DNA from: Clostridia bacterium
Lineage (GTDB): Bacteria; Bacillota; Clostridia; Oscillospirales; Acutalibacteraceae
Direction of reading: 5' to 3'
Length of the DNA stretch: 57,036 nt
NCBI GenBank assembly: GCA_017471765.1
Contig: JAFURT010000040.1
Span: forward strand, 1 to 57,036
The position numbers were made by a program, and so were the translations under genes. Shown here piece by piece: positions 5,107 to 9,692 of the stretch. Below the pieces are notes generated by a model. It worked only from the letters and a program-made list of their open reading frames with translations, did no database searches and was not told the origin of the DNA. Each line of letters starts with the position of its first letter. The first letter of the stretch is position 1.

Positions 5107-5628
5107 ATGGACGTAAGCAATATTTATAGGAAGTATTTATTCAAATATCGTTGGAATAAGCATCGAGCCTTAAAGGCGGCAATGCATGAGATTACTAAGC
5201 ACATTAGCTCTTTAGATATTAATGATAATTTTATGAAAGAGTATTATAAAGCCAAACGACATCTTATGATACTAAATGTGATTTCTCCATCCATACTTTT
5301 AGGCTTGAGTACAGGCCTTTTGGTATCTGTACTTAATGTGCGGGAGATGCCATTTAATTTGGAAGATCTTTCGCTTTCTACCGTTTTTCAAATTGTATTG
5401 TTTTTGTGTGGGGAAAATATTCTTCCTTTAATTATCGGTGTTACCGGTGTGTTTTTTCTAGTTGTGTTTAATTTTGGCACGAGAGTTAAGTGTGTGTTGT
5501 ATCCTCATTTGGTCAAACAGATGGAAGAAAGAATTGAAGAGAGTTATCGTCTTCATAATATAAAAAACACAAATAAAACCGTATTCGAGTCAAAAAGAAA
5601 TACAATGATTCTAAGCGGTGAACAATAG
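5107..5628 (+). CDS. Small membrane protein, partner of the DAC-like protein
   Basis: 173 residues, with ATG 5107 behind AAGGAGGA. A basic N-terminal region of about 50 residues is followed by a hydrophobic helix at about 53-77. A second hydrophobic stretch at about 90-124 can form one long or two short helices. A charged, soluble C-terminal tail of about 48 residues ends the protein. There is no signal peptide or catalytic motif. The gene ends 26 nt before the DAC-like gene and shares its AT-rich composition, so the two are probably co-transcribed. The size and two-helix layout resemble membrane effectors paired with nucleotide-second-messenger enzymes in defence loci. That is an analogy, not a family match. 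Confidence 0.72.
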   Translation: MDVSNIYRKYLFKYRWNKHRALKAAMHEITKHISSLDINDNFMKEYYKAKRHLMILNVISPSILLGLSTGLLVSVLNVREMPFNLEDLSLSTVFQIVLFLCGENILPLIIGVTGVFFLVVFNFGTRVKCVLYPHLVKQMEERIEESYRLHNIKNTNKTVFESKRNTMILSGEQ

Positions 5629-5654
5629 AGACGCAACAAAAAGGAGGGAGCAAA

Positions 5655-7043
5655 ATGGCAAATTCGCTTGCTACTGAAGATAGAAAAAAGGGCGCAATCC
5701 AGGAGTTTAGATATATACTTGAGACTTATATTTTACCTTTACTTAGGACGGAAGGGTCGCTGATATTGAAAGTAGAACCAACCTTTTCCAAAAGACTGGA
5801 GAAGCATATTGGATGCCACAAAAAAAGAGGAGAACATTATTTGTACTTTTTTCCTGCGTTGTCAACCCCTCAATTTCATTATCGAATAAAGACGAATCAT
5901 CCTAAGCAAAAACTAGGTGCGGCCGAACGGATTTTGCGAGAAATATTGTTAGTTAGTCAATTTGATTATCAATCTAAAGATTTCACAAAGGCAAACTATT
6001 ACGATATTAACAATCTATACCGAAATGCAAGATTTGATGTTGCGTTTGAAATAGGATTATGTGGTTGGCTAGGTGGCGAATGCATTTATGGCTTAATAGA
6101 ACGTCTTCGCGATTGGTCCCAGAAAACCTATGAAGGCAATCATATGTCTTTTGGCTTTATTATTGATGCAACAAAGACAACCGTTGGTGAAGTAGATTAT
6201 TTGAGTTTTTTAAAGAGTAATCACAGTGCTGTTTTTACCGATGGCATGTCTTCGGGAATTAAATTGGACTGCAACGGAAGGATAGTTAAGTACTTTTCTG
6301 CTGTACAAGAAAAACCCGAAGGCCGTTTTAAGCACACAACTTGGACGCCATACGAATTTGTGGATTTTGCCAATAAATGCCATTTCCATAATGGCTCTCA
6401 ATGGATCGGCATTATAATGCAAAGCAATGGTGACATGCTGGTTTTCAAATCCAAGCACTTAGTGTTTGTCAAGCGCAATGGGAAATGGATATACTTGGAT
6501 TCGCACAACATAAACTCTATAATACAAACAAAATACAAAGACTACGGGCTTGCAGATGAAAGTGAGAGCAAAAAATTTGCGGATGAAGTGTATCTGTCGA
6601 TATTGGATACATCGTTTGCTCACACAGGTGGATGTATTGCTATTGTTGATTCTAAAAACATTGAAGTCGTTAAGCTGCAGTGCTTTCCAAAGGATTCATT
6701 GGATAATGAAGTGGATAGTACAGAAAAGAAAGCCATAATTAGACGTTTGATTAGCACGGGTTCGGTTGATGGAGAAAAACAATATTTTCAATATTTGGAT
6801 AGAAAACTTCGATTAGAACTCTTGAGTCTTGATGGTGCAACCGTGATCGATTCATCCGGAAGAATTTTGTGTGTAGGTGCAATTGTTAAAGTTGAGGGCG
6901 GCAGTGAGGATGGCGGAAGAACGGCGGCAGCAAAGGAACTTGCGAAATATGGGCTCTCTATGAAGATTTCTGTGGATGGAACTATTAAGTGTTTCATAAC
7001 AGATGATAATCATAAGCTTAAAGAATTGTTCAGAACGCTTTGA
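5655..7043 (+). CDS. Protein with divergent diadenylate-cyclase (DisA_N)-like C-terminal domain
   Basis: 462 residues, ATG 5655 after AAGGAGGG. Residues about 305-455 follow the DAC fold pattern of DisA/CdaA. FAHTGGCIAIVD (321-332) resembles the N-terminal 'GG.iaiv' strand. SLDGATVIDSSGRIL (391-405) carries the DGA motif (393-395). GGRTAAAKELAKYG (420-433) stands where DisA has RHR followed by the TAE helix. ISVDGTIKCF (438-447) is the final strand. Residues 165-285 contain an internal sensor-like region (VFTDGMSSGIKLD...IGIIMQSNGDMLVF), as in proteins with DAC-associated N-terminal domains. The family makes c-di-AMP from ATP. Here RHR has become GGR, so activity or product may differ. It is paired with a membrane protein in an integrated element, which suggests a defence or signalling role (inference). 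Confidence 0.68.
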   Translation: MANSLATEDRKKGAIQEFRYILETYILPLLRTEGSLILKVEPTFSKRLEKHIGCHKKRGEHYLYFFPALSTPQFHYRIKTNHPKQKLGAAERILREILLVSQFDYQSKDFTKANYYDINNLYRNARFDVAFEIGLCGWLGGECIYGLIERLRDWSQKTYEGNHMSFGFIIDATKTTVGEVDYLSFLKSNHSAVFTDGMSSGIKLDCNGRIVKYFSAVQEKPEGRFKHTTWTPYEFVDFANKCHFHNGSQWIGIIMQSNGDMLVFKSKHLVFVKRNGKWIYLDSHNINSIIQTKYKDYGLADESESKKFADEVYLSILDTSFAHTGGCIAIVDSKNIEVVKLQCFPKDSLDNEVDSTEKKAIIRRLISTGSVDGEKQYFQYLDRKLRLELLSLDGATVIDSSGRILCVGAIVKVEGGSEDGGRTAAAKELAKYGLSMKISVDGTIKCFITDDNHKLKELFRTL

Positions 7044-7093
7044 ATTTGCTGAGTGCAATAATAACTTTCGGTAGAAAAACGGAAAATCACATA

Positions 7094-7122
7094 TTGACAT
7101 TGTGGCATTTTTTTGTTATAAT
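7094..7122 (+). promoter_or_regulatory. Perfect sigma-A promoter for a small RNA
   Basis: TTGACA (7094-7099), exactly 17 nt, TATAAT (7117-7122). It lies 50 nt after the DAC-like stop codon, and no ORF with an RBS follows. The expected transcript start is near 7129. Confidence 0.8.
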
Positions 7123-7128
7123 GCATAT

Positions 7129-7250
7129 ACTAAGTTTGGTGGAGATAGAATCTCTTGCCAGTGTTCGTCCTGAGCTAGGATCAAACTCTCAATTCGGGAT
7201 GAGCAGAAACAGGAACGTGTGTGGACCACATTGTTCCTGTTTTCTTTTTT
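7129..7250 (+). ncRNA. Predicted sRNA antisense to the 16S rRNA 5' end
   Basis: A transcript of about 120 nt is defined by the promoter at 7094-7122 and a strong terminator at 7207-7250. It has three parts. A small hairpin GAGAT-AGA-ATCTC spans 7142-7154. A central 36-nt segment (7157-7192) is the reverse complement of the start of bacterial 16S rRNA, the region used for primer 27F. The terminator stem is last. The segment differs from the exact antisense at two places (T7162 and T7176 for C). Both changes keep pairing with the rRNA as U-G wobble. The RNA sits directly after the DAC-like gene in the mobile element. It is no known RNA family to me. Blocking 16S maturation, sensing rRNA, or a decoy role are possible. 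Confidence 0.65.
7207..7250 (+). terminator. Intrinsic terminator of the sRNA
   Basis: A 10-bp perfect stem AAACAGGAAC (7207-7216) with GTTCCTGTTT (7233-7242), followed by CTTTTTT. It probably also ends readthrough from the membrane/DAC-like operon, since no other terminator lies between. Confidence 0.85.
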
Positions 7251-7279
7251 ATTGAGTTTGTAAATTAATGGTGTTATAG

Positions 7280-7316
7280 AGGTCGCCTATGTCATGGACT
7301 GGGCGGCCTTTTATAT
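7280..7316 (+). terminator. Second terminator-like hairpin
   Basis: AGGTCGCC (7280-7287) can pair with GGCGGCCT (7302-7309), with one G-U pair, followed by a T-rich stretch TTTATATTT. It may back up the sRNA terminator. Confidence 0.5.
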
Positions 7317-7704: not shown

Positions 7705-7914
7705 ATGTATAAGAACATTGATGAACTCCCCATTACATTCGGACCGGTTGAGTTGGCATCAATACTCGGTATATCGCGTAACAAAGCATATGAGTTGGCC
7801 AACCGAGCCGACTTCCCAAAATACAGAGTGGGGAGGAAAATAATTATTAGCAAAAAGCATTTCGTTGCGTGGATGGATACTCATTTTTCTGACACCAACG
7901 AAGGTGTCTTTTAG
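7705..7914 (+). CDS. xis: Excisionase-type DNA-binding protein
   Basis: 69 residues from ATG 7705 behind AGGAGGAA. The frame is open further upstream, but no other start has an RBS. The sequence LASILGISRNKAYELANRADFPKYRVGRKIIISKKHFVAWM is split here for description. Its helix-turn-helix (LASILGISRNKAYEL) and the small winged segment that follows match the excisionase/MerR-like HTH_17 family of Tn916-type elements. Such proteins bend DNA at att sites and bias the integrase toward excision. It is 127 nt upstream of the integrase on the same strand, the standard xis-int order. Confidence 0.85.
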   Translation: MYKNIDELPITFGPVELASILGISRNKAYELANRADFPKYRVGRKIIISKKHFVAWMDTHFSDTNEGVF

Positions 7915-8041: not shown

Positions 8042-9289
8042 ATGGGCAAAAAGAAAGCAAATGGTGAAGGTTCTATTTCCAAAAGAGCCGACGGCAGATA
8101 TATGGGACGTTATACTGCCAACGGAAAGCGAAAGGCGGTCTACGGCGCAACGCATGAAGAAGTGCGGTTGAAACTAAATGAAATACTGAACGATATCGCC
8201 AAAGGTGTTTACATCGAACCCGGCAAGGAAACCGTAAGCTCGTGGTTACGGGATTGGTTGGTGACTTATGCATTGCCAACAGTCAAGCAATCGACCTATA
8301 TTTCTTATGAGGGCTATGTGCGTAATCATTTGATACCAGAATTAGGCGATACTAAGCTGACTGCATTATCCAAGGAACAGATTCAACGCTTCTTCAATAA
8401 AAAGGGAGCAGGCAGAAAAGGGAAAAAGGGTTTATCTCCCAAAACCTTGAAGAACATTTATAATATGTTCAATTCTGCTTTGGATCAAGCAATTATCAAT
8501 AACAAACTGGCTCGCAGTCCGCTTCTCGGCGTTAAGCTACCGAAAGTCGTAAAAAAAGAAATTCGTGTGCTTGAACCCGCTGAACAGATTTCTTTACAAA
8601 ATGCTGCGGAAAGCTCGCCGGAATTACAGGCGTTTGGTATTATTTTCACTTTAAGTACAGGTGTCCGGTTGGGAGAACTTATCGGTTTTCAACGCGGCGA
8701 TCTCAACCATAAGCGACACTCTATTAAGGTGAGAAGAACGGTAGGACGCTTACAGAAGGTGGACGAGGAAGGAAACCTGATTAAAAAGGCAGACGGTGTT
8801 AAAACCACTGAGATCGTTATCCGTACACCAAAATCCATAACCTCGCAAAGAGAAATTCCTTTATTCGATGAACTGTGGGATGGTCTATTGGCTTACTGTT
8901 CAAAAATGGAAGAAATGATGGATGCACTGGGAATCGAATATGGCAATAACTCGTTTCTGTTTTGTAACGGAATGGGCAACCCTTACGATCCCAGAGTGTA
9001 TGAAGACCTATTCAAGCGAACGCTTAAATCTGCCGGATTGGATAATATCAATTTTCACGCCCTTCGCCATACGTTTGCAACGCGAGCCCTTGAGGCTGGT
9101 ATGGATATAAAAGTATTATCGTCCATCCTCGGTCATGCTCAGGCTTCTACCACGCTAAATCTGTACGGTCACGCATTACCCGATCATAAGAAAAATAGTA
9201 TGGATAAAATGAGCGATTATTATATTGGCTCGGTTGACACCAACGACAAAGATAAATACGACGAAAAAATTATCCAAATCGCAGGTTGA
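8042..9289 (+). CDS. int: Tyrosine-type site-specific integrase
   Basis: 415 residues, ATG 8042 after AAGGAGG. The first 60 residues are a basic arm-binding domain (GEGSISKRADGRYMGRYT). A SAM-like core-binding domain covers about 65-165, and the catalytic domain about 175-400. The full active-site set is present: R209 (TGVRLGEL), H339 and R342 (HALRHTFATR), H365 (LGH) and nucleophile Y375 (LNLYGH). It catalyses integration and excision of the element at the adjacent junction. The 3' end of the gene already contains the first of the 9-bp arm-type repeats (9235-9243), which continue downstream to 9540. It belongs to the Tn916-like integrase group in layout and length. Confidence 0.93.
   Translation: MGKKKANGEGSISKRADGRYMGRYTANGKRKAVYGATHEEVRLKLNEILNDIAKGVYIEPGKETVSSWLRDWLVTYALPTVKQSTYISYEGYVRNHLIPELGDTKLTALSKEQIQRFFNKKGAGRKGKKGLSPKTLKNIYNMFNSALDQAIINNKLARSPLLGVKLPKVVKKEIRVLEPAEQISLQNAAESSPELQAFGIIFTLSTGVRLGELIGFQRGDLNHKRHSIKVRRTVGRLQKVDEEGNLIKKADGVKTTEIVIRTPKSITSQREIPLFDELWDGLLAYCSKMEEMMDALGIEYGNNSFLFCNGMGNPYDPRVYEDLFKRTLKSAGLDNINFHALRHTFATRALEAGMDIKVLSSILGHAQASTTLNLYGHALPDHKKNSMDKMSDYYIGSVDTNDKDKYDEKIIQIAG

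Positions 9290-9617: not shown

Positions 9618-9692
<75 letters not shown>

Follow-up and report, generated by a model that had tools for sequence, protein, structure and literature searches.

A small RNA gene with complementarity to the 5' end of 16S rRNA behind a protein gene on mobile elements of Clostridia

RESULTS

Layout of the locus

We analyzed a stretch of 57,036 nucleotides from a Clostridia bacterium (here called the window), in which a small RNA (sRNA) gene lies directly behind the gene for a 462-aa protein and is followed by genes typical of a mobile element (Table 1). The tRNA-Met gene beyond the integrase gene is likely the attachment site of this element. The 173-aa protein encoded upstream of the 462-aa protein is without sequence likeness to the upstream membrane-like open reading frame (ORF) of L047, one of three further loci described below (L046, L047, and L108). 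The initial annotation had placed the sRNA on a mobile element, and this was borne out by the integrase in the window, by the recombinase and phage-like genes (named by eye) near the copy at L046, and by conjugation genes on the plasmid that carries L108. An Abi-like gene, also recognized by eye, was seen near the L046 cassette and within the same phage-like region (L046:9432-10388).

Table 1. Features of the sRNA locus, with positions counted from the first letter of the window
Feature	Position	Strand	Basis or remark
173-aa putative membrane protein, possible effector	5107..5628	+	ORF; membrane nature judged by eye
462-aa protein, putative partner gene of the sRNA; very weakly DAC/DisA_N-like C terminus with LDGATV motif	5655..7043	+	ORF
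sRNA promoter, TTGACA-17-TATAAT	7094..7122	+	12/12 consensus bases, TG ahead of the -10 box
Small RNA, ~120 nt, three predicted hairpins	7129..~7250	+	Inferred ends (start, -10 box; end, terminator)
Hairpin I	7136..7161	+	AUAGAAU kept in three close copies; 4/11 pairs changed on both sides
Segment antisense to the 16S rRNA 5' end	7155..7190	+	36 unbroken pairs, 4 of them G-U
Hairpin II	7162..7205	+	5' arm 7162-7174, loop 7175-7192, 3' arm 7193-7205
Hairpin III/terminator	7206..7243	+	Loop GUGUNGACCAC kept in three close copies
HTH/AlpA-like excisionase-type protein of the element	7705..7914	+	Pfam HTH_17, E 2e-11
Tyrosine integrase of the element	8042..9289	+	Pfam Phage_integrase, E 2.5e-22
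tRNA-Met	9618..9692	-	Putative attachment site of the element

Promoter, ends, and predicted fold of the sRNA

Perfect matches to the promoter pattern occur 5 times in the whole window, compared with 0.01 expected from shuffled sequences. The terminator, as read from the sequence and the fold, consists of hairpin III followed by a T run; the hairpin was absent from the output of a simple terminator scan. The fold of the whole RNA was estimated at -46.8 kcal/mol (z = -4.6), and the four copies of the RNA that we compared were 122, 118, 124, and 124 nt long. The earlier description of an RNA of about 120 nt, defined by a perfect promoter and a strong terminator, thus held up, and transcription from this promoter is what the sequence predicts. 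That description had also denied the RNA any coding potential. We likewise take it to be noncoding; two frames do exist, namely, a 71-aa frame (7040-7255) that begins upstream of the promoter and a short TTG frame within the RNA that is present in the window and L047 and absent in L046 and L108. The genome of the window (G000) holds one copy of the sRNA. Searching 7050-7300 against Rfam 15 gave no family above the gathering score and a single sub-threshold match, to small-subunit rRNA on the minus strand, and the interval 7040-7300 was free of tandem repeats.

Of the three hairpins, hairpin II carries the 16S-like sequence: its 5' arm and most of its loop are complementary to 16S rRNA, and its 3' arm closes the stem. 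In the fold prediction, positions 7163-7173 of the 5' arm had an unpaired probability of <0.1, and the loop was clearly open only at 7175-7177, 7181-7186, and 7190, the remainder lying in a predicted small inner helix. The antisense part of the RNA had been thought to be an exposed middle, which the prediction does not bear out in that form: half of the 16S-antisense segment is buried in the stem of hairpin II.

Complementarity to the 5' end of 16S rRNA

Next, we looked at how well the sRNA could pair with 16S rRNA. Against the first ~200 nt of the 16S rRNA of a member of the host family, the segment at 7155-7190 scored 68, compared with 28 or less in 60 dinucleotide shuffles, and the next best site for the sRNA on one full-length 16S rRNA of the family scored 27. 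On one full-length 16S rRNA, the 5' end was also the best site for all four RNAs. Unbroken pairing with the 16S 5' end ran over 36 to 37 pairs in the window and L047. An antisense stretch of 36 nt had originally been placed at 7157-7192; its length stands, but its best position is two bases further upstream, with A7191 left unpaired by those 16S leaders of the host family that were read. T7162 and T7176 form G-U wobbles with the common 16S sequence, as had been claimed, and the 16S rRNA of one family member (L002) would pair with T7162 exactly.

Net pairing energies, which are rough estimates made with a 48-nt piece of the 16S 5' end and with the cost of opening both RNAs included, were -31.5 kcal/mol for the window, -24.0 for L046, -32.5 for L047, and -14.2 for L108. 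A 16S gene was absent from G000 and from the genomes of L046 and L047; it was likewise absent from 6 other genomes of the window's genus and 15 of the genus of L047. Judged by sequence, the gene has what marks a trans-acting antisense sRNA: its own promoter, a terminator, and a long stretch complementary to an RNA whose gene lies elsewhere.

Recurrence of the RNA behind the protein gene at four loci

A search with the 462-aa protein found relatives in two Clostridia MAGs (L046 and L047; 58% and 65% identity, respectively) and on plasmid pMM35_02 of Vescimonas fastidiosa (L108; 34% identity). The RNA was present behind the gene in all 4 loci with at least 34% protein identity, the window included, and absent behind it in all 9 loci with 33% identity or less (L109 to L117), a dividing line that was set after the result was seen. 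Scores against the 16S 5' end separated the two groups in the same way, with values of 35 to 70 at the RNA-bearing loci and no segment above 31 at the others. Four of the seven chromosomal homologs that come without the RNA (L111, L112, L115, and L117) still align across most of the protein. A further homolog, 31% identical over residues 90 to 458, was found in phage record MT837587.1, which ends about 30 bases past the gene.

The RNAs of L046 and L047 share with that of the window the perfect promoter, ATATACT near the start, a hairpin I with AUAGAAU, a 16S-antisense hairpin II, and the terminator loop GUGUNGACCAC, and the DNA similarity of these close copies extends from the -10 box through the terminator. 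At L047 a frameshift interrupts the DAC-like gene (L047:3750-3840), and the sRNA behind this gene is intact.

The copy at L108 is more distant. Its perfect promoter, read by eye, lies upstream of the conserved RNA at a distance about 55 nt greater than in the other copies. The RNA contains CATATACT, then a hairpin and the segment CGTTCTTCTTGAGCCAGGATC, with terminator hairpins following. Of the 16S-antisense segment, 21 nt are kept with one mismatch (score of 35 versus 25 or less in 60 shuffles). The RNA model scored this copy at 18.9 bits, below two unrelated matches in the same search (23.2 and 22.4 bits), and the shorter of its two folds is without hairpin II as formed in the other copies. 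We regard L108 as a probable diverged copy, a case that rests on its place, its promoter, and the 21-nt segment. We had also looked for homologs in which the 16S-like part is lost or decays, and found the part kept in 4 of 4 copies, in the shortened and mismatched form just described at L108.

The recurrence of the RNA behind the same gene at four loci supports the association with the neighboring gene that had been suggested for the window. It also argues that the sRNA is not a stray piece of rRNA, a view suggested in the initial annotation as well and one with which the covariation of hairpins in the close copies agrees.

Conservation of the hairpins and of the 16S-antisense arm

To describe how the RNA has changed, we compared the three close copies pair by pair. 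Both sides had changed in 9 of 38 pairs, compared with 3.3 in shuffles, and these changes fell mostly in hairpins I and III (4 each, versus 1 in hairpin II). Pairing was kept in 99% of the paired cells, compared with 38 to 51% when the partners were slid. The number of further pair types, one of five covariation measures, was equaled by 35 of 500 shuffles. Pairs that never vary made up 3 of 11 in hairpin I, 8 of 12 in hairpin II, and 9 of 15 in hairpin III, so that among the modeled pairs the invariance of hairpin III comes close to that of hairpin II.

The two arms of hairpin II have not been conserved alike. Over the four copies, with the parts cut by hand and the figures given without a significance test, identity was 86% in the 5' arm (67/78), 64% in the 3' arm, 51% in hairpin I, and 55% in hairpin III; the loop of hairpin II as a whole was 63% identical, its 3' part lying beyond the 16S match. 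If only the stem mattered, both arms should drift alike, and the asymmetry therefore argues for something beyond the stem. A 5' arm that stays fixed while the 3' arm adjusts to keep the pairing points to a partner outside the RNA. Constraint on the 16S-antisense segment, which had been proposed on other grounds, is thus supported.

One difference among the copies may reflect the 16S rRNA of the host. L046 reads GAATC where the other copies read GGATC or GGATT, and its A faces a C of ordinary Clostridia 16S rRNA, which makes a mismatch. In the genus of L046, the 16S rRNA reads GATTCTGG in place of GATCCTGG in both of the genomes with a 16S gene (2/2, of 27 searched), so that the A would pair with a U there. 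This was the one instance of pairing-preserving covariation with the host 16S that our search for such changes returned, and the probability of 3 to 5 departures striking that place with the right base is about 3 to 14%, depending on the model, for what is a single event. Two further bases of L046, at the junction of hairpins I and II, are still mismatched with the 16S rRNA of its own genus. GATCCTGG was found in all 29 of the 16S ends read from the host family, a biased control, since these ends were fetched by their likeness to the window sRNA with a pattern demanding GATC; they therefore do not show how rare GATTCTGG is.

Wobble pairs proved less telling. When three copies were compared within a 34-nt frame, pairing with 16S survived in 8 of the 11 departures (P value = 1e-4 under uniform substitution, 0.21 with transitions only), and the departures are not independent, because two changes are common to L046 and L047. 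The view that the wobbles by themselves show selection on pairing is therefore not supported.

Searches for further copies

Among 300 genomes of the host family, DNA matches to the sRNA other than the window's own were confined to query positions 64 to 101, the rRNA part, with two exceptions, weak terminator-like matches in G046 and G020. The RNA model, run on 398 family genomes, scored the window at 131 bits and seven other places at 24 to 28 bits; we rejected these seven as copies, two being rRNA and five being without the exact core motifs. In phage and plasmid collections, no record among the matches listed (8 of 8, the best 20 of 416, the best 10 of 429, and 10 of 10) covers more than 31% of the query, and most of these matches fall on the rRNA part of the query, a few weak ones lying outside it. 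The RNA of L108 itself is not among them, which indicates that this search misses distant copies.

In viral contigs, neither the joined anti-16S patterns nor the promoter combined with an anti-16S pattern gave a match, and the promoter combined with ATATACT gave 60 matches, none with the exact anti-16S motifs. Three matches to the 16S antisense core were all rRNA, as judged by eye, and none of 13 matches to a CTTGAG variant was recognized by the RNA model. A short piece of the 5' end of 16S rRNA, apparently outside a whole rRNA gene, was also seen on one viral contig (L130:9476-9497). Relatives of the protein were found in none of the viral contigs, in the window alone among the 398 family genomes, and, among 247 relatives of the genome of L047 and 201 relatives of that of L046, in those two genomes themselves.

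The neighboring protein

The 462-aa protein matched no family above the cutoff in Pfam or NCBIfam, its profile matched none of the solved structures, and its matches in PHROGs were weak only. A Pfam AEP1 match fell below the cutoff and was taken as spurious. PADLOC, run on the two proteins encoded at 5107-7043, gave no match for the 462-aa protein and one weak DrmE match for the 173-aa protein (E 0.03).

Diadenylate cyclases (DACs) have the active-site motifs DGA and RHR. The C terminus of the 462-aa protein carries an LDGATV motif like that of these enzymes, and DGA is present in 7 of 7 aligned homologs. RHR was not seen among them; 6 of the 7 have GGR-T/L-AA in its place, and the seventh ends before that site. 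The cutoff of the Pfam family (PF02457) was not reached, the window protein giving no match and its best homolog giving 19.5 bits versus the 27 needed; the match of the Agrobacterium homolog to Pfam DAC had an E value of 7.6e-4, below the cutoff. Two homologs matched the NCBIfam model DS2_3_antiphage weakly. When the protein was aligned by hhalign with the host's own DAC, only the DGA motif aligned, at a probability of <1%; the only PF02457 match in G000 is a gene on another contig (C25). The protein may thus be DAC-like or nucleotide-cyclase-like, a very weak likeness that we treat as a lead.

The Agrobacterium homolog lies on a plasmid of Agrobacterium vitis, beside genes for JAB, ThiF, DncV-like cyclase, and patatin proteins, that is, a CBASS (L109:4617-10417).

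DISCUSSION

Comparison with known systems

Three kinds of known system resemble this locus in part. In type III TA systems (ToxIN, AvcID, and kin), a small structured RNA gene likewise lies by a protein gene on mobile or defense DNA; their RNA gene is made of tandem repeats and precedes the toxin gene, with which it is cotranscribed across an intervening terminator, and the RNA of AvcID is reportedly lost on transcription shutoff. Here, in contrast, the RNA lies downstream of the protein gene with its own promoter at four loci, tandem repeats are absent (7040-7300), the RNA is complementary to 16S rRNA, and the protein gave no match to known toxin families in the libraries used. The locus resembles trans-acting antisense sRNAs in having a loop and stem complementary to a target RNA, its own promoter, and an intrinsic terminator but differs in that the apparent target is the 16S rRNA 5' end instead of an mRNA and in that no Rfam family was found above threshold. 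We know of no bacterial small RNA that has the 16S rRNA 5' end as its conserved target.

The third system is DS-2 (DefensePredictor), a CBASS-like system with an extra DAC protein, in which mutation of the DAC abolished defense (PMC13092281). Common to both is a DAC-like protein in a conflict setting, the Agrobacterium homolog being found beside CBASS genes. In contrast to DS-2, the window has neither a CD-NTase nor a phospholipase among the seven of its proteins scanned with Pfam, an antisense RNA is present, and in sequence the protein is tied only very weakly to the DS-2 DAC. In those parts of the open-licence literature that were consulted, we found neither an sRNA antisense to 16S rRNA nor a DAC with a noncoding RNA.

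Proposed function and alternatives

We tentatively propose, as the likeliest of the readings considered here but one that is possible rather than probable, that the two genes form an RNA-protein cassette on gut-Clostridia mobile elements in which the sRNA reads the state of 16S rRNA, or intercepts it, and so controls its DAC-like partner in defense or stress. One part would be the protein with its weakly DAC-like, nucleotide-cyclase-like C terminus, and the other would be the sRNA with its three hairpins, transcribed from a strong promoter that belongs to it alone. The loop of hairpin II would present the antisense of the first 16S bases, pairing would start there, and the 5' arm would then invade, completing about 36 base pairs. 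In the finished 30S subunit, the 5' stretch of 16S rRNA is buried in helices 1 to 3 and the central pseudoknot, so that only nascent, misassembled, decaying, or freed 16S rRNA could pair. The opening of hairpin II, or the long duplex that results, might change the activity of the partner protein, and the cassette would in this way monitor rRNA synthesis or decay and bring about growth arrest or abortive infection.

In a more specific and somewhat unlikely form of this proposal, the cassette would be an immune or stress module in which free or nascent 16S rRNA pairs with hairpin II and switches the DAC-like protein on or off, phage takeover of rRNA synthesis or rRNA decay would be what is detected, and the sRNA would coevolve with the host 16S. 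The conflict setting, which we count in favor of the cassette (CBASS by the Agrobacterium homolog, the DS-2 DAC, and the integrase, phage-like, and conjugation neighbors), perhaps points to defense.

The sRNA could also act on the ribosome directly, as a weapon. Once accumulated or freed, it would pair with nascent pre-16S rRNA and either block helices 1 to 3 and the central pseudoknot or make a long RNase III substrate, so stopping 30S assembly, and the protein would restrain or release it. The 36 to 37 unbroken pairs in the window and L047, a net pairing that is favorable after opening, the choice of the 16S 5' end by all four RNAs on one full-length 16S, and the strong promoter would all suit an RNA of this kind. 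A constitutive-looking strong promoter on a toxic RNA would, however, need tight control, of which none is visible, a stem keeps half of the segment closed, and the match at L108 is shorter and mismatched; we consider this account unlikely. Complementarity could, on the other hand, be beside the point. The RNA would then be a scaffold or RNA antitoxin of the neighboring protein, type III-like in effect; its hairpin II would derive from a captured antisense fragment of rRNA and be retained because it binds the protein rather than because it pairs with 16S. AvcID, an RNA antitoxin system with a role in defense, offers a precedent (PMC10511110). In favor of this account, the RNA adjoins the protein gene at four loci, the motifs AUAGAAU and GUGUNGACCAC of hairpins I and III are kept although they lie beyond the 16S match, and the invariance of hairpin III falls little short of that of hairpin II. 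It is harder to see on these terms why the 16S-like arm should be better conserved than the arm with which it pairs, why the change in L046 follows the 16S rRNA of the host's genus, and why such an RNA should be free of tandem repeats and be served by a separate promoter downstream of the gene. A scaffold or antitoxin thus seems to us rather doubtful.

It is highly improbable that the segment is a functionless relic, some 16S antisense fragment that a mobile element picked up by accident. Viral contigs do carry pieces of rRNA, and many plasmid and phage records contain rRNA-like matches, but a relic is contradicted by the conserved promoter, by three covarying hairpins, by 16S complementarity in diverged copies, and by DNA similarity that runs from the -10 box to the terminator among them.

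Were the sRNA to pair with 16S rRNA in the cell, as our tentative reading of the cassette supposes, mobile DNA would touch or read ribosome assembly through base pairs formed with the cell's most conserved RNA, which, if true, would be either a new kind of sensor for defense systems or a new way of stopping 30S assembly. Since the 16S 5' end is nearly universal, the question can be tested in ordinary laboratory strains.

Chromosomal homologs and RNase P RNA

The chromosomal homologs of the 462-aa protein belong to the genus g147, in 7 matching genomes of the 391 genomes of the class (L111 to L117; genomes G304, G597, G399, G469, G343, G566, and G580). In all seven, the RNase P RNA gene (rnpB, recognized by eye) lies directly downstream of the homolog. 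G304, which is 100% complete, has no Pfam DAC match, and the homolog might, going by sequence, stand in there for the missing diadenylate cyclase. GACCACATA occurs both in the terminator loop of the L046 sRNA (L046:7632-7650) and toward the 3' end of RNase P RNA in several of these genomes (L111 to L116), probably by chance.
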